A DNA stretch of 26,394 nt from a virus. Each line of letters opens with the position of its first letter. Positions within the stretch are counted from its first letter, which is position 1. The notes under the pieces were generated by a model. It had not been told where the DNA came from and ran no database searches. It saw only the letters and a list, made by a program, of their open reading frames with translations. Both the position numbers and the translations under genes were made by a program. The stretch is taken from IMG/VR virus record IMGVR_UViG_3300006874_000111, positions 1 through 26,394 of that record; one strand, given 5' to 3'. This document shows, one piece after another, positions 8,418-20,381 of the stretch.

Positions 8418-8786
8418 TTTGTATTCTAATCCGTACGCCTCAACTTCACGTTGATCTCTGCCCTTCTGGTTTTTCCTACATTCAAAAACATTGCCTTCCA
8501 TTAGTTGTTTTGCATGAACTAATTCGTGTGCAAAGGTTACAACTATTTCATCAAAGTCATGCTTCTCATATTCGTAACCTACATTAGTACCTCTGGCTAA
8601 TTCAATTATAATTGATTCATCATCTCCATGACAATAACCCATAGCACCATCTAAATGTTTTTCAGATCTTACTTCTATGTCAACATCATGATTGATATCT
8701 CCGCATATATCATTTAGAACATTCTGACCAAACTGTTCTAATTGTCGTTTTTGGCGTAGTTGGCCTGTGAAGTAAAAATGAATCAT
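8388..8786 (-). CDS. Small HExxH metallopeptidase-like protein
   Basis: A 132-residue protein with a zinc-binding HExxH, 'TFAHELVHAKQ' (His87, Glu88, His91), and a downstream acidic helix 'REVEAYGLE' (Glu114/Glu116) that can supply the third ligand, as in gluzincins and the SprT/ImmA-like minimal proteases. No signal peptide or membrane segment is seen, so it should act in the cytoplasm. Its ATG lies in the stop codon of the PP-loop gene (ATGA), so the two are translationally coupled. Possible roles are cleavage of a host regulator or of a phage protein, including a product of its partner. The substrate is not evident. Confidence 0.75.
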   Translation of the reverse strand: MIHFYFTGQLRQKRQLEQFGQNVLNDICGDINHDVDIEVRSEKHLDGAMGYCHGDDESIIIELARGTNVGYEYEKHDFDEIVVTFAHELVHAKQLMEGNVFECRKNQKGRDQREVEAYGLEYKLVRRYWNPN

Positions 8787-9847
8787 ATGTCTGCAACTAT
8801 ACTGTTTGAGTTTTTAATATCCTTACCATTAACAAAATTATTAAATGTTTCCATAATACTTTCAAAGTTATTATATTTTGGTGCAAGTTGATATTGTCTT
8901 TTGTTATACCATTCTGTTCTTTCGTTATGTCTCCAAAGGGGAACTCGATACCTTTTATTAAATTCATCCAGGTCACCTTTTTGTTTCATATAGTGTATGC
9001 GTAATAATTCAAAACCAGTTTCTTTTCTAAATGGAATTTTGTATTCGGCCCAATCAAATGCTTTATAATATTTTATTTTGTAATCATAGATATCATATCT
9101 AAACTTTTTATCGTTGATCATGTATGGCAATTCATTGTATTTTTTAAGCACTCTCATGTTATGATAATAGGATAAAAATAAAATTTCCCTTGACATAAAC
9201 ATAGGATCAACTATGAGATCGATATTATTTTGTTTAGCAAAATTTAGCCACGGCACATAACGCCTTTTATAGAGATCTTTGTCTTGTTCAATTCTCATAC
9301 CAGTAACACCTTTCTTTGATTTGTATCCTGGTGGAAAACACTGTCCATTAAAGTAACCAAAAATTGGAACCTCACCTCCTATAACAAATGTACTATCATT
9401 AGAAATACTTGAAATACATTTAGCATGAGTTGCAATTTGTGGACTGTTAAAATAATATTGTTTACTGAAATCAAGTACGTGATTATCCTCAATAAAATCA
9501 CGCAAATCAAAATCAACGTATGTGTGGTCAGCACCCATATGGTCAGCAAATATTTTACTAGATACTACATCGCCAGGGTTGACCACACTGTCGTCCCACA
9601 TAAATCTAAATGTTACACACTTGACATCTTCACAATATCGATTAAAAACATTAAACGCAAATTGACTATCAAGCCCGCCGCTGAGTAACAGTGTAATTGG
9701 TTTATTTTTATAAGGTTCTAGGGCTTTTTGAAAGTGATGCTGGATGTCATAATTGTTTGGTTCTTCTATGTGAATATTGGATATGCCCTCTGAAAAATCA
9801 AAGAAAAAAGTTTCAGGAGAGCCAATAGATAGAGTGTTTGTAACCAT
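8783..9847 (-). CDS. PP-loop ATP-pyrophosphatase, asparagine-synthase-like, without glutaminase domain
   Basis: A 354-residue protein with a PP-loop 'LLLSGGLDSQFAF' (SGGLDS at residues 56-61) that binds ATP and adenylates a substrate carboxyl, as in asparagine synthetase B and relatives. 'FADHMGADHTYVDFD' and 'FVIGGE' fit the second half of the nucleotide site. The N-terminus lacks Cys2 and the class II glutaminase domain of AsnB, so it must use another nucleophile or free ammonia. The C-terminal 150 residues are Tyr/Lys/Arg-rich and not recognised. It is coupled to the HExxH gene and diverges from the subtilase gene, with late octamers facing both ways. No SD precedes the ATG; an AATAAATA octamer ends 6 nt before it. 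It could modify a peptide, a tRNA or a metabolite. Confidence 0.75.
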   Translation of the reverse strand: MVTNTLSIGSPETFFFDFSEGISNIHIEEPNNYDIQHHFQKALEPYKNKPITLLLSGGLDSQFAFNVFNRYCEDVKCVTFRFMWDDSVVNPGDVVSSKIFADHMGADHTYVDFDLRDFIEDNHVLDFSKQYYFNSPQIATHAKCISSISNDSTFVIGGEVPIFGYFNGQCFPPGYKSKKGVTGMRIEQDKDLYKRRYVPWLNFAKQNNIDLIVDPMFMSREILFLSYYHNMRVLKKYNELPYMINDKKFRYDIYDYKIKYYKAFDWAEYKIPFRKETGFELLRIHYMKQKGDLDEFNKRYRVPLWRHNERTEWYNKRQYQLAPKYNNFESIMETFNNFVNGKDIKNSNSIVADI

Positions 9848-9873: not shown

Positions 9874-9881
9874 GATAAATA
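9874..9881 (+). promoter_or_regulatory. Late promoter octamer GATAAATA for the subtilase gene
   Basis: ATGATAAATACTTATT on the plus strand, 47 nt before the ATG at 9929. It forms a perfect 8-bp inverted repeat (GTATTTAT/ATAAATAC) with the opposite-facing octamer, making a compact divergent late promoter. Confidence 0.7.
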
Positions 9882-9928: not shown

Positions 9929-11509
9929 ATGGCAAAATATTTAATATCGTTAGATAGTGACGTATATGCTGATAATGCGGCTGGAGCAACAGCCATTACT
10001 GATACGGGTGCATCTATTTATACAACGTATAGTTTACCTTTAACTTACGAAATTGAAGCAACACCGGAACAACTTAACAGTATTGGTAATATCAGTCAGC
10101 AAGAATACTCAACATTATCAACACAGATTTCACCTCAGGGTGCTACGTTTAGTTTAGCACACTTGAACTATACGCAAGATCCGCAAGGAAATATCACATA
10201 TCAAAATGTACAAAACGGTGCAGGTGTAGATGTTTTCTTGATTGACACAGGAATAGATGCAACTCACCAAGAGTTTGTAAGTGCAAACATTTCCAACTTA
10301 TGGACAAACTTTAGCGGTGACGCAAACATTTCCAACTATGATGACGAGGTAGGACACGGTACTGCTGTAGGCAGTTTAATTGCAGGTGGTAATATTGGTG
10401 CGGCTCCAGGCGCTCAAGTACACAATGTTAAACTGTTTAACGCAACTGACGGTAATGTCACTATAGGAGAGATTATTAGCAGTTTAGATGCAGTATATAA
10501 CTATCACCAAAGTAACGACAATACTAAAATTAAAATTGTCTGTACTCCATGGGTAATTAGTCAAAATAACTTTGTTGATGCAAAAATTCAACAAATGAAT
10601 CAAAACAACATGATTGTTGTTGCATCAGCAGGTAACACAGGCGAAGATGTAAATCAGTTTTCACCAGCAGGTAATAATTTTGCAATAACTGTAGGTGCAT
10701 TTAACAGCAGTAACGAAGTAACAACATTTACAAATGGTCCTACTACATCAGGTGGTTCCGGTTTTGTTAATTACGGTGCTCAATTAGATTGTTTTGCACT
10801 AGCAGTTGATATTAGTGTAGCAGATCATGCCAATGTGTCTAACTATAATACTTCAAGTGGTACTAGTTTAGCGGCAGGTATTGCGTCAGGTGCTATTGCA
10901 GGATATGCACAACGTGATACAGCATTAAGTGCGCCAGAGCTCAAAGAGAGATTCTTAGCAGAAGGTCACATGTGGGGTGTTAACGATTTAACATACGACA
11001 ATGCAAATGTTAACTATGATGATGTTTACAAGTCAATGGTAACTACTGTAAGTAATCAAATTCCTACATTGTTTAGTACACAATCAGGTAGAATTGCAAA
11101 CGTACAACGTGGTTCAAACGTAACTGTTGATTTAGGTATTACTTCTACAGCAACAGCAAATGTTGCAGTATTAGATTTTGCTCCTTTACCACCATGGATT
11201 GAATTCAACGGTGCTACTGGTGTTGTAAGTATTAATAGTGGACACGAAGATTGTACTGCTAACTTATCACCAGGTGTATATATCTTTGCTGTAAAAGGAA
11301 CTGTTATACAAGATGAGGCTGACTCTTCTCAAAACGTTATTGTTGTTGAAGAATACAGTGTTGGATTGTATACAACAAATGCAAACGAAGTAGATGGTAG
11401 TAGTGACGGAAACATAAGTTCTTACTACTATGATAATTCAAATAACGAATATGACGAAGTTGTAAACTATCAGGTTGCACCGTCAAGTAAACCATCGTTT
11501 AAGAACTAA
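9929..11509 (+). CDS. Subtilisin-like (S8) serine protease with I9-like prodomain and Ig-like C-terminus
   Basis: A 526-residue protein with a complete subtilase active site: Asp106 ('DVFLIDTGID'), His143 ('EVGHGTAVGSL'), oxyanion Asn236 ('ASAGNTGED') and Ser313 ('SSGTSLAAG'; the usual Met and Pro are Leu and Gly). Residues 3-70 look like an inhibitor_I9-type propeptide ('YLISLDSD...TYEIEATPEQLNSI'), which would fold and inhibit the enzyme until cleaved. After residue 375 follows a beta-rich, cadherin/putative-Ig-like module ('LDFAPLPPWIEFNGATGVVSI') and a Tyr/Asn/Ser-rich tail. No signal peptide is present, so it would act inside the cell or in the virion. SD TGGAG and a late octamer indicate late expression. 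Possible roles are processing of a structural protein, virion-borne digestion of surface protein, or self-release of a fibre domain. Confidence 0.9.
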   Translation: MAKYLISLDSDVYADNAAGATAITDTGASIYTTYSLPLTYEIEATPEQLNSIGNISQQEYSTLSTQISPQGATFSLAHLNYTQDPQGNITYQNVQNGAGVDVFLIDTGIDATHQEFVSANISNLWTNFSGDANISNYDDEVGHGTAVGSLIAGGNIGAAPGAQVHNVKLFNATDGNVTIGEIISSLDAVYNYHQSNDNTKIKIVCTPWVISQNNFVDAKIQQMNQNNMIVVASAGNTGEDVNQFSPAGNNFAITVGAFNSSNEVTTFTNGPTTSGGSGFVNYGAQLDCFALAVDISVADHANVSNYNTSSGTSLAAGIASGAIAGYAQRDTALSAPELKERFLAEGHMWGVNDLTYDNANVNYDDVYKSMVTTVSNQIPTLFSTQSGRIANVQRGSNVTVDLGITSTATANVAVLDFAPLPPWIEFNGATGVVSINSGHEDCTANLSPGVYIFAVKGTVIQDEADSSQNVIVVEEYSVGLYTTNANEVDGSSDGNISSYYYDNSNNEYDEVVNYQVAPSSKPSFKN

Positions 11510-11530
11510 TCAAAAACTTTTTAACAATAT

Positions 11531-11577
11531 AAAACCTCATTATAAATACTAGCAACAGTAAATTATAATGAGGTTTT
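11531..11577 (+). terminator. Hairpin: terminator of the subtilase gene and SD-sequestering leader
   Basis: A perfect 15-bp stem pairs 11531-11545 with 11563-11577 around a 17-nt loop, and the 3' arm runs into T11579, giving a six-T run. It begins 21 nt after the subtilase stop and could terminate that transcript. The 3' arm also contains the GAGG (11570-11573) that is the SD of the next gene, so read-through RNA would hide it. The late promoter 11541-11548 lies across the 5' arm. Confidence 0.75.
11541..11548 (+). promoter_or_regulatory. Late promoter octamer TATAAATA inside the hairpin
   Basis: A perfect TATAAATA followed by CTAG. A start 6-7 bp downstream (about 11554) falls in the hairpin loop, so RNA from this promoter lacks the 5' arm and leaves the SD GAGG (11570-11573) free, 6 nt before ATG 11580. 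Confidence 0.75.
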
Positions 11578-11579
11578 TT

Positions 11580-12608
11580 ATGGAAGTTGATTTAACAACC
11601 AAAAACAATGTCTTTAATGCAGTTGGTTCACAAGGCCAATGGTTTCAGCATAGATGGGGCAAACGTTCTTATCCAAATTTGGAATTAGATATAGATGATG
11701 TAAGAAAAATTATTTCTAATATCAAAGAAGGAGAATCTGTATACGCAAAATCAGTATATGGTGATTCTATGCAATGGGAAGATATTGCAGAACTTGCTTC
11801 AGACTTAGGCGAAAAACTTATTATAACAACTTACGGTATGGCAGGCGAAGATAAAATCGAAGCCATTAATAAAACTGGTGCTTATATACATGTTCTTTTA
11901 GACGGTGTTGACGACATGTGTGGCAAAGTTTTTCTTAGAGCAAAGTGGAGTAAAATAGATTCGTTTATTGAAAGTTGCAATAATAAATTAATCGAATTTT
12001 ATGTATACGAACACAACAAACATCAGATTCCTGATATTATCAAATATTGTCACAAGAAAGATATCTTCCTAAAACTAACACCAGGTATTGCTAAAGATGC
12101 TGTAGGTAGTGCTATCATTGATCAAATGGGCGAATGGTTATACGATGTTATGCCCGAAGATGTTAACACAGACTTCAAAGGCCCTGGCTATTGGACTGCA
12201 GAACTTGAAGAGTTTGGTGACGTAGAACCAGTTGAAGTTCAACGCAATACTGAAAATCATACATCATTAAGAACTTTCTTAACAAGTCCTGAAGGTAGAA
12301 GTATTTTAGAAAAGCCTTTGGTTTCAACTTACATTCCAAACGAAGACTATTTTGAAGACTTTGAGGAAGAATACAATGAATCTGTAACAGAAAATTTTTA
12401 TATTTCTGTATCTGGACATGTATTCAAAAGTCACGAAGAATACACAATGTTTTCACAAATGCTTTCTCCCGATTGGGACGTATCTACAGAAACTTGCAAA
12501 ACTGATGCCGTAACACACAATTTGTTTGCACAAAAGGTATTATGGTTTGCTAAAAAGTTTGATGAAGATTACATCAAAGACGTTGAAATAGATAAAGTAT
12601 TTTCTTAA
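11580..12608 (+). CDS. Radical-SAM-like barrel protein lacking the cluster cysteines (putative)
   Basis: About 342 residues from ATG 11580, with SD GAGG 6 nt upstream; an ATG at 11568 lies in the hairpin before the SD and is unlikely. The first half alternates strands and helices in the way of a radical SAM TIM barrel: 'VYAKSVYGDSMQWEDIAELASDL' (position of the GGEP strand), 'KLIITTYGMAGEDKIEAINKTGAYIHVLLDGVDD' (position of 'ITTNG...vSlDG'), then 'IPDIIKYCHKKDIFLKLTPG'. No CxxxCxxC motif is present; the few Cys are scattered, so the enzyme, if related, would not bind a normal [4Fe-4S] cluster. The C-terminal third is acidic. It follows the subtilase gene and meets the PAAR gene convergently with a 4-bp overlap (TTAA region). 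The family call is a weak pattern inference; the gene itself is clear. Confidence 0.6.
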   Translation: MEVDLTTKNNVFNAVGSQGQWFQHRWGKRSYPNLELDIDDVRKIISNIKEGESVYAKSVYGDSMQWEDIAELASDLGEKLIITTYGMAGEDKIEAINKTGAYIHVLLDGVDDMCGKVFLRAKWSKIDSFIESCNNKLIEFYVYEHNKHQIPDIIKYCHKKDIFLKLTPGIAKDAVGSAIIDQMGEWLYDVMPEDVNTDFKGPGYWTAELEEFGDVEPVEVQRNTENHTSLRTFLTSPEGRSILEKPLVSTYIPNEDYFEDFEEEYNESVTENFYISVSGHVFKSHEEYTMFSQMLSPDWDVSTETCKTDAVTHNLFAQKVLWFAKKFDEDYIKDVEIDKVFS

Positions 12609-16912: not shown

Positions 16913-16941
16913 ATTTTATACTACTATACTTATCTTGTCAA
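16913..16941 (-). promoter_or_regulatory. nrdA: Sigma70-type promoter of the nrd operon
   Basis: The minus strand has TTGACA (16936-16941), a 17-bp spacer and TAAAAT (16913-16918), about 38 bp before the nrdA ATG. The -35 is 6 bp downstream of the stop codon of the upstream gene 16947-17372, from which no terminator separates it. Confidence 0.8.
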
Positions 16942-17372: not shown

Positions 17373-20300
17373 TTATGATGTACTTGACCAACGTCTAATA
17401 ATATATTTTAATCTTAACTCTGCACCAATATTGTGTGCTGTATATGTAAATGGTGTAACACTTGGATCTACGATTTGATTTTGTAGTCTAAGTTCTACTT
17501 CGTCACCATTTAATACTGCTTCAAATTGTGGTTCTACAATAGGATCACTTGATGAGATTTCATAACTGCTTGAGAATGTATCATTTAACACAACTGCATT
17601 TGCTGGATCTGAAAAATCAGTTCTTGCAGTAACAGTCATTGTTCCTATTCTCATGTACTTGTTTGCAGAACCTGCCTTTTCTGTTAAAGTATAATCTAAT
17701 ACAAAACTATTAAATACACCAACACCAATACCAAACAATTTAGCATTAGCACCATCACTTAATAAAATTGGCTCAATAGTTAATGAATTGTATGTTGTGG
17801 TTGTTTCACCAAAGGCCGCGGCTTCTCTGGTTTGTAGTTCTAAATTGGTTTTTAGATTTAGCAATCCTTTTGTACCATCAGATGTATCAGTTTCTCTGTC
17901 TATTGGACTCTGATTGTAAATCTTATTTGTTAACTCATTGTAGAAACCTGCTTCTTCTCTGGTAGCAAAAGTTATTTCATTGTATGTTGTATCTATAACT
18001 AAATCAAATGAATCTGCTAAGTTATTATTAATATGTGTTAATCCACTTGCATATAGAGGACCACCACTAAACACATCAACAAACATATTAACATCTCTGT
18101 CTTTGACTAAACCATCTAGCCATGTTTCTAATTTTGCCCTAACAGTATTATTTGCTCTATCATATGTGCCTGGTGACAAACCTAATACACTTAATGTTGG
18201 TACTGTTTTGTCCTCATATAATGAGAAAGAAATACCACCTGCTGACACACTTGATAAACTAGGTCTCTGAGAAACATATAATTTATTGAGACTGTTATCT
18301 TCCTGTATACTCCAATTCATTGTTGGGAAAATACTTGTATTAGCACCACCACTTGTTGTTTGTACTAATGATCTATTTACTATAACAATAGCGTCTTGTA
18401 TACTACTTGCACTCGATAAATCAATTGACAACACAGGAGCCGCTTTAGTTGTACCTGTGTAACTTGCCCCAAGTACTGGCATCAATTCACCATTAGAACC
18501 TATTTGGGCTGAGGAACCTGATTTCATTGCCCCATTAGTAACAAACACAGTATTTGCTGTTGTTTGATCTGCGTCAATTGTTGAAGTAGTGTTTACTATT
18601 GTTCCATCATTATCAGTTGTAATTACAACACTTGAAACTAAACTTGTGAATTCATTATCAGGAACTAAAAGTGTAAAACCAGTATCTACGTTTGCACTTC
18701 CTATACCATGGTCAATAAATCCTACGTTAGCAATGTTTGCTGACATAGTTGCAGTGTTACCACCAAGTATACCATTTTGTATTTCAATTACAAATGAGTT
18801 ATTAAGTGAATCTATTGATTGTACCTCAAAAATAGAATCGTGTAAATCTCCAGCAGAATTAACCATACGCACAAAATGCCCTGTTGCTAATCCTTCTACA
18901 AACTTACTATCAGAACCTATAACTGATACATTTGTTTCACCTGCTTGACTAGTAATTAAATTAGCAGTACCAAATCTCACTAATTGCCATGATGACTTTG
19001 GTATGTTAATATCTAATGTTTTAGCAGTACTGTCTATAGTTGCTACGTCAAACATTTTATTATTGAGATAATCATTTACATTAGGTGTTGTTATTTTTGC
19101 TTTGTTGTATCTGTACGTTCCGCCATCAACACTGAATATGTCATTGAAGTTTGCATTATCAAAATCTACAGTATATCTTTCTGGAGTACTAGTACTGCCA
19201 AAATTTGTACTTGTATTACCTGTAACGTCAGCATCGTAATATTGATCTTCTCTGCCTATAACAAAAGAACCAAGTGTAAGTCCTGTGGTGCTTGAAATGT
19301 TTGCACCGTCTGCAAATACTGCAATATGTCTATTTTCTAATGCAAAAAATCCAGTACCCGAACTAGTGCTTACTCTGATGTTTTGTTCTGGTATTCTTCT
19401 GTAATAAGGAATGCTGTAAGCATCATAAAAACTGTTTGCTTGATTGGTAGCGGATATGTTTCCGTTAACACCAGTTAGTGCCAAGTTTACATTTGCATTG
19501 CTGTAATAGCAAAGAGACACATCATCTGTTACACTAGGTGCAGTTCTAAGAGTCAGTGTATGATAACCTGTAGAAGTAATATTACTTGCATTTAATACGT
19601 AATCAGCATTTGCACTAGGCACAGTTAAAATAGAAGAATTTGATTCTGGTATAAGTTTAATACCATTCTTCCTCACAATAACATCTGTGCTCTTAAAAGT
19701 ATCAGTGTTGTAATTATTTACAATGCTGTTAGGTATAAATTCTATGTTGGAGTTCTGGGTTAGAGTTTGTGCTTGGTTAAGAGTAATTGTGTAATTATTA
19801 AATCCATCATTTACAATATTAAGAACTTTAACTTGATTGCCGCTGATTTCTGTACCATTTACAAAATCACCAATACGTATGCCGTCAAAGTCTGCTGGAT
19901 TACCTGCATTGTTTACTACAAATGTATCTGAACCATTTACATCAGCATTTGCTAGTAAATGTACACTGTTTGTAGTTTCTGTGCTGAATACAGGAAACTG
20001 AGAACTCATATTATAGAATTCTGTTTTATCGCCCGAATCTAAACCAGTTAAAAGTGAACGAACTTCTTTTGCTTCAACAGAATCAGAAAATTGTGTACCA
20101 TCAAATTCTCCTTTTTTAATAAAGTAAAAAGGAACAGTGAATGCAATAATATTATTGTTTGCAATACTAATTACATGGTCTCTGCCACTTACAGTATTTT
20201 CAATATAACTAGTAGTACTGAGATCAACAGAGTTAGGATTGTTAGGATCATGACCAATATAAACTTGCTTACTATCAACCGCTAGGCCAATTTCACCAGG

Positions 20301-20381
20301 TCGTAAAGGTTGTGGGAGATCTTGTTTAAGTCCTCTTCTGTGTTGTATTCTAGATACTATAGTTTTGTCGTTTTCTGCCAC
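17373..20381 (-). CDS. Very long tail-fibre-like virion protein (Mtd-type N-terminal domain)
   Basis: A 1002-residue protein. Residues 8-43, 'RIQHRRGLKQDLPQPLRPG' then 'EIGLAVDSKQVYIG', are the N-terminal motif shared by phage major-tropism-determinant and other fibre proteins that attach to the tail or baseplate. The rest is rich in Asn, Ser, Thr, Asp and Val with short strands, as in beta-structured fibre shafts; no enzyme motif is seen. It uses a GTG start (20381) with SD GGAG, and a GATAAATA octamer just upstream indicates late expression. No chaperone or glycosidase domain was recognised at the C-terminus ('AELRLKYIIRRWSSTS'). A role in host recognition is likely but the exact position in the virion is not shown. 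Confidence 0.85.
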   Translation of the reverse strand: MAENDKTIVSRIQHRRGLKQDLPQPLRPGEIGLAVDSKQVYIGHDPNNPNSVDLSTTSYIENTVSGRDHVISIANNNIIAFTVPFYFIKKGEFDGTQFSDSVEAKEVRSLLTGLDSGDKTEFYNMSSQFPVFSTETTNSVHLLANADVNGSDTFVVNNAGNPADFDGIRIGDFVNGTEISGNQVKVLNIVNDGFNNYTITLNQAQTLTQNSNIEFIPNSIVNNYNTDTFKSTDVIVRKNGIKLIPESNSSILTVPSANADYVLNASNITSTGYHTLTLRTAPSVTDDVSLCYYSNANVNLALTGVNGNISATNQANSFYDAYSIPYYRRIPEQNIRVSTSSGTGFFALENRHIAVFADGANISSTTGLTLGSFVIGREDQYYDADVTGNTSTNFGSTSTPERYTVDFDNANFNDIFSVDGGTYRYNKAKITTPNVNDYLNNKMFDVATIDSTAKTLDINIPKSSWQLVRFGTANLITSQAGETNVSVIGSDSKFVEGLATGHFVRMVNSAGDLHDSIFEVQSIDSLNNSFVIEIQNGILGGNTATMSANIANVGFIDHGIGSANVDTGFTLLVPDNEFTSLVSSVVITTDNDGTIVNTTSTIDADQTTANTVFVTNGAMKSGSSAQIGSNGELMPVLGASYTGTTKAAPVLSIDLSSASSIQDAIVIVNRSLVQTTSGGANTSIFPTMNWSIQEDNSLNKLYVSQRPSLSSVSAGGISFSLYEDKTVPTLSVLGLSPGTYDRANNTVRAKLETWLDGLVKDRDVNMFVDVFSGGPLYASGLTHINNNLADSFDLVIDTTYNEITFATREEAGFYNELTNKIYNQSPIDRETDTSDGTKGLLNLKTNLELQTREAAAFGETTTTYNSLTIEPILLSDGANAKLFGIGVGVFNSFVLDYTLTEKAGSANKYMRIGTMTVTARTDFSDPANAVVLNDTFSSSYEISSSDPIVEPQFEAVLNGDEVELRLQNQIVDPSVTPFTYTAHNIGAELRLKYIIRRWSSTS

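Follow-up and report, generated by a model that had tools for sequence, protein, structure and literature searches.

In a 26,394-nucleotide fragment of a marine T4-like phage (IMG/VR record IMGVR_UViG_3300006874_000111; this whole stretch is hereafter the window), a subtilase gene is followed by a gene for a 342-aa protein, gene 11580, whose start codon abuts a long hairpin carrying a late promoter motif. What does an element of this kind do between two genes? The initial annotation had read it as a stage switch of the T4 lysozyme type, in which RNA reading through from the subtilase gene keeps the ribosome binding site of gene 11580 closed within the stem and late RNA, having lost the 5' arm, frees it. 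The features on which the question turns are as follows.

9874-9881 (+), late promoter motif of the subtilase gene, GATAAATA, 47 nt before the subtilase ATG
9929-11509 (+), subtilase gene (Pfam Peptidase_S8, 1.9e-23)
11531-11577 (+), hairpin, terminator-like and abutting the start codon
11531-11545 (+), 5' arm, AAAACCTCATTATAA
11541-11548 (+), T4-type late promoter motif TATAAATA, spanning the junction between 5' arm and loop
11546-11562 (+), hairpin loop of 17 nt
11554 (+), predicted late transcript start, the sixth base past the last A of TATAAATA
11563-11577 (+), 3' arm, TTATAATGAGGTTTT
11570-11573 (+), Shine-Dalgarno-like GAGG within the 3' arm, in the window's clade only
11574-11579 (+), T6 tract, putative terminator U-tract and spacer to the ATG
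11580 (+), start codon ATG of gene 11580
11580-12608 (+), gene 11580, product with a radical-SAM-like fold lacking CX3CX2C (AlphaFold model, Foldseek)
16875 to 12605 (-), nrdA/nrdB operon, leftward

A terminator-like hairpin at the start codon

Direct reading of the sequence confirmed the perfect 15-bp stem, the motif TATAAATA, the GAGG and the T run as first annotated, and the minimum fold of positions 11520-11600 is exactly the claimed stem (-21.6 kcal/mol, z -5.86), with none of 200 shuffled versions as stable as the native sequence. This is the sole perfect stem of at least 10 bp (loop 3 to 30) in the window, and 40 Markov replicas of the window yielded no perfect stem of 15 bp, the maximum being 12; the hairpin is far beyond chance. 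No Rfam family matched it. A second in-frame ATG lies inside the 3' arm at 11568, and relatives start at the equivalent of 11580.

A stable stem running directly into a U-tract, the mark of an intrinsic terminator, is found at 11531-11579. The stem is A+T-rich (3 G-C pairs) and the hairpin would make a modest terminator; a terminator consensus scan of the window limited to loops of 3 to 8 nt did not list it because its loop is 17 nt long.

The embedded motif matches the late-promoter motif of the lineage

By itself TATAAATA is not rare, with 4 copies in the window against 3.57 expected by chance, so its weight comes from its position and its conservation. Of all 7-mers upstream of genes in the window and four longer contigs, ATAAATA shows the strongest bias towards the sense strand (45 sense versus 15 antisense). 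Contig G001 has 39 copies on its two strands together, and 25 of them stand upstream of a gene in the sense orientation where 2.3 would be expected. Sense enrichment upstream of a phage group's genes, which we took as the mark of a late promoter, was thus found, and by these counts NATAAATA is the late-promoter motif of the window's lineage. The late motif NATAAATA is likewise found upstream of genes in the cyanophages S-PM2 and Syn9 (PMC2984593). Unlike these cyanophage promoters, which are usually free-standing, the motif studied here is embedded in a hairpin, and most relatives' hairpins carry CTAAATA or TTAAATA, forms that depart from NATAAATA at one position and are weakly enriched upstream of genes.

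Late-promoter spacing in T4 sets the position at which transcription starts. The same spacing is independently suggested by related phages, in which NATAAATA-N5-ATG forms a sharp peak, and it places the transcript start past the 5' arm in every hairpin carrier, so that late RNA would be unable to fold the stem. The earlier proposal of a late promoter in the hairpin is thus borne out by the T4-type motif in the window and by TAAATA in all hairpins of the family, and the loss of the 5' arm from late RNA follows under the T4 spacing rule, the start itself being predicted.

The layout is conserved while the stem changes

Homologues of gene 11580 recovered by IMG/VR searches share 24-83% identity. 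In 32 of 48 distinct upstream regions a hairpin immediately precedes the ATG and carries TAAATA in the loop or the 5' arm; over the last 52 nt these 32 reduce to 29 distinct elements. Stems are unrelated between clades, being CCTCATTATAA/TTATAATGAGG in the window and CCGTGYTA/TARCACGG, GCCCGTATT/AATACGGGC, GCCGCAC/GTGCGGC, GCTGCAC/GTGCAGC or GCACTAA/TTAGTGC in other clades. Stem positions hold C-G, G-C, A-T or T-A depending on the relative, with paired changes at nearly every position. As MAFFT misaligned the window hairpin with those of the relatives, whose loop lengths differ, pairs were counted hairpin by hairpin, a count that does not capture the window's own stem (2 pairs counted) and leaves the other rows unaffected. 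The initial annotation had held that stems broken without compensation in related phages would speak against it; apart from a lone mismatch in L356, none was seen. Its suggestion that the stem and T run can terminate the subtilase message likewise agrees with a terminator-like layout conserved through compensatory changes.

The constants of the 29 elements are TAAATA, the T-tract and the ATG, and the invariant columns in an alignment of 15 representatives are mostly TAAAT and the T-tract. The rightward T-tract is T6-T7 in 28 of the 29 and T5 in the remaining one; the leftward tract is variable, several elements (L009, L012) having T-tracts on both sides. TAAATA itself shifts from loop to stem between relatives. 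A sequestered Shine-Dalgarno sequence is not conserved: GAGG occurs in the window and its clade only, relatives having ACGG, GGGC, CGGC, CAGC or GTGC at that position, and the hiding of such a sequence is not what the family has conserved.

Scans of the hairpin carriers' contigs found one such element each, at the gene 11580 homologue. The hairpin appears dispensable, since L338 and L378-L380 retain the subtilase gene upstream and have no such element, and the clade L381-L397 has no terminator hairpin. Members of that clade show TAAATA-GAGAT-ATG, a promoter motif standing by itself 5 nt ahead of the ATG, from which RNA is predicted to start at the AUG itself; two of them (L057, L058) have a different hairpin that reaches into the coding region and encloses the start codon. 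Save in L338 and L378-L380, the gene's own promoter is, by motif, constant wherever the gene lies behind subtilase. On this comparative record the late promoter inside a hairpin at the start codon is a real and conserved layout.

Neighbouring genes and the product of gene 11580

The motif NATAAATA occupies the place of the subtilase promoter in all 25 relatives checked. The promoter scan listed no strong sigma70-like site on the + strand between the subtilase late promoter and the hairpin. For the leftward nrd operon a sigma70-like promoter lies at 16941 (-), and the operon's unit and that of gene 11580 overlap tail to tail at 12605-12608. All four tRNAs of the window are on the - strand, as are an asparagine-synthase-like domain protein at 8783-9847 (Pfam 2.2e-5), divergent from the subtilase gene, and a 1002-aa protein at 17376-20381 whose borderline match to Mtd_N (major tropism determinant N-terminal) only just passes the Pfam threshold.

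The gene has been rearranged in L337 and L341-L343, where it stands behind nrdA-nrdB on the same strand, the subtilase gene being on the opposite strand beyond PAAR. In L337 and L341 it is directly downstream of nrdAB, and the hairpin and the late promoter are both absent. The protein tree nests L337 among hairpin carriers, which is consistent with loss of the hairpin when the gene moved; the placement of L341, a long branch, is unsure.

The product of gene 11580 matched nothing in Pfam or PHROG. An AlphaFold model built from 34 sequences reached a pLDDT of 85 (62 from 7 sequences), and by Foldseek it matches the radical SAM enzymes SkfB (E 7e-7), BlsE, anSME and MoaA in the PDB. We rejected assignment as a radical SAM enzyme, the cluster-binding cysteines being missing: CX3CX2C is absent from the family in the alignment and present in the distant relatives L062 and L064, and the distant relatives L059-L067 retain the cluster cysteines. 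On the model, the protein is possibly a pseudoenzyme.

A proposed boundary at which late transcription would terminate and restart

We propose, with a probability of about 0.6, that the element is a compact boundary separating the transcription units of two late genes, at which transcription would terminate and then restart. RNA polymerase leaving the subtilase gene would meet an intrinsic terminator, the stem and U6, and mostly stop. The same hairpin DNA would provide the late promoter of the next gene, from which a gp55-type late polymerase would restart near 11554, downstream of the 5' arm. The new RNA, lacking that arm, could not form the stem and would be translated, whereas read-through RNA would keep the hairpin intact as far as the start codon and be poorly translated, so that gene 11580 would be expressed from its own promoter. 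In folding calculations, the openness of positions -14 to +3 rises between the long and the short RNA from 0.10 to 0.34 in the window, from 0.00 to 0.89 in L008 and from 0.14 to 0.75 in L009. The translational silencing of read-through RNA is probably a by-product.

Hairpins of related anatomy precede T4 e, soc, 49 and I-TevI (also segB, and mobE of Aeh1), where a late promoter overlaps the 5' arm, the hairpin masks the next gene's ribosome site and late RNA is made without the 5' arm (PMC3014915, PMC2988022). The present element is like them in that TAAATA overlaps the 5' arm or loop in 29 of 29 elements and in that, by folding, the Shine-Dalgarno/AUG region is covered in the long RNA and more open in the late one. 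It is unlike them in lacking a conserved sequestered Shine-Dalgarno sequence, although GAGG is present in the window, and in having upstream RNA that, judged by motif, is not early or middle; the hairpin is moreover terminator-like, with U6-7 running into the ATG, and what it precedes, in marine T4-like phages, is a gene unrelated to the T4 targets. From its sequence the element would work like the T4 hairpins, and we do not file it as a strict-sense member because neither early read-through nor a conserved Shine-Dalgarno sequence is apparent. With the intrinsic terminators of T4-like phages it shares a stem, a U-tract behind it and a place where a transcription unit ends, but its stem-loop DNA bears the promoter of the next gene and its U-tract doubles as leader and spacer to the ATG. 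Our literature searches turned up no account of a promoter within a terminator in T4-like phages, a result that speaks only weakly for absence.

A stage switch of the T4 lysozyme type, in which early or middle read-through RNA would hold the ribosome site shut and translation would await late RNA from the embedded promoter, gains from this match in anatomy to T4 e, soc, 49 and I-TevI, and the promoter motif in the hairpin, the predicted loss of the 5' arm and the conservation of the element all stand. A genome-wide opening test also recovered T4 genes of 157 and 258 aa, lengths that match gp49 and I-TevII, and in the isolate Synechococcus phage ACG-2014e an element laid out alike, its 3' arm containing GGGAGG, stands behind gp43, uvsX, gp41 and mazG and before Syn7803C85_151. 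Early read-through and a conserved Shine-Dalgarno sequence are the parts that fail. Since a separate late promoter motif serves the subtilase gene at 9874-9881, as in the relatives (25/25), RNA reading through from it is expected to be late too, and the supposed contrast between late RNA and subtilase read-through is not supported; between that motif and the hairpin no strong sigma70-like promoter was listed on the + strand. Where the gene follows nrdAB and is likely to be early, as in L337 and L341, it has neither hairpin nor promoter, which argues that early silencing is not a general need. We therefore consider a stage switch unlikely at this locus.

Still less probable is that the hairpin is a terminator only, perhaps a bidirectional one that would also stop leftward nrd RNA running antisense through gene 11580, with TAAATA incidental. 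The canonical stem and U-tract in relatives, the T-tracts on both sides in several of them, the nrd promoter at 16941 (-) and the tail-to-tail overlap would all suit such a function. It leaves unaccounted for, however, the invariance of TAAATA inside otherwise freely changing hairpins and its presence 5 nt before the ATG in L381-L397, which have no terminator hairpin, and a bidirectional role fits poorly with a variable leftward T-tract. A conserved loop motif on a variable stem is also a signature of hairpins bound by protein, so the element might be an RNA site for a phage or host protein (the gene's own product, or a RegA-like repressor) recognizing TAAATA in the loop. We regard this as very improbable, given that TAAATA is the promoter motif of the lineage, that the motif also occurs with hairpins in front of unrelated genes and that it moves from loop to stem.

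Occurrence before other genes

IMG/VR was scanned with the pattern TAAATA-N(1-25)-GGTTTTTTTATG (GGT7ATG), which fixes GG-T7-ATG, so that only the hairpin and the motif count as evidence. Among the matches listed, the motif lies inside a hairpin before 26 of 49 open frames, 15 of them outside the gene 11580 family; a reversed-motif control gave 9 of 30 among the matches listed, but 7 of these are ATAAATA sites, and 2 remain once such late-promoter sites are set aside. Genes of phrog_1462 are among the other targets, along with those for a tail-fibre assembly protein, GIY-YIG proteins and a tail tube protein. For the ACG-2014e element a stage switch is plausible; Syn9 has CTAAATA without a hairpin at the apparently corresponding place. 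The wider claim, to which we give even odds, is of a recurrent module in marine T4-like phages, an intrinsic terminator that contains a late promoter and has its U-tract extending to the following ATG, which would end one unit and start the next within about 45 bp, would block translation of read-through RNA and would have arisen, or been kept, before several unrelated genes.

A general tendency of start regions at late promoters to pass from closed to open was rejected, there being no overall enrichment (50 of 225 late-promoter genes above 0.3, against 145 of 868 controls), and the hairpin element thus appears to be a special case. Longer start-spanning stems, scoring at least 18, were somewhat more frequent at late promoters, with 24 of 204, a set that includes the gene 11580 family, against 167 of 4356, in a comparison where AT-rich motifs favour pairing.

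Late promoter motifs five nucleotides from the start codon

ATAAATA followed by an ATG (frame of at least 60 codons) at exactly 5 nt was seen in 38 cases, against 1 for spacings 0 to 4 together and 5 for spacing 6. These loci are at 26091-26076 (-) in the window, in contigs G001, G004, G006 and G007 (L019-L034) and in Pelagibacter phage HTVC008M (L301-L308), where the genes include the baseplate wedge and DNA end protector; there are none in T4 or Syn9 and 1 in P-SSM2. Combined with T4 spacing, a 5-nt interval would start late mRNA at the A of the AUG, leaving it leaderless. Prediction of late promoters is reported to have failed in pelagimyophages (PMC7029224), an outcome that leaderless late mRNAs may explain.

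Significance

The T4 lysozyme hairpin is a classic, described in the literature that we found for T4 and its close relatives. Here, a hairpin with an embedded late promoter is maintained across divergent marine phages, with a deep comparative record. What has been kept is the promoter, the pairing, the U-tract and the proximity to the ATG, and what has not been kept is the Shine-Dalgarno sequence, which points to termination and restart as the core function. The layout also offers a signature by which late promoters might be recognized in pelagiphage-like genomes.
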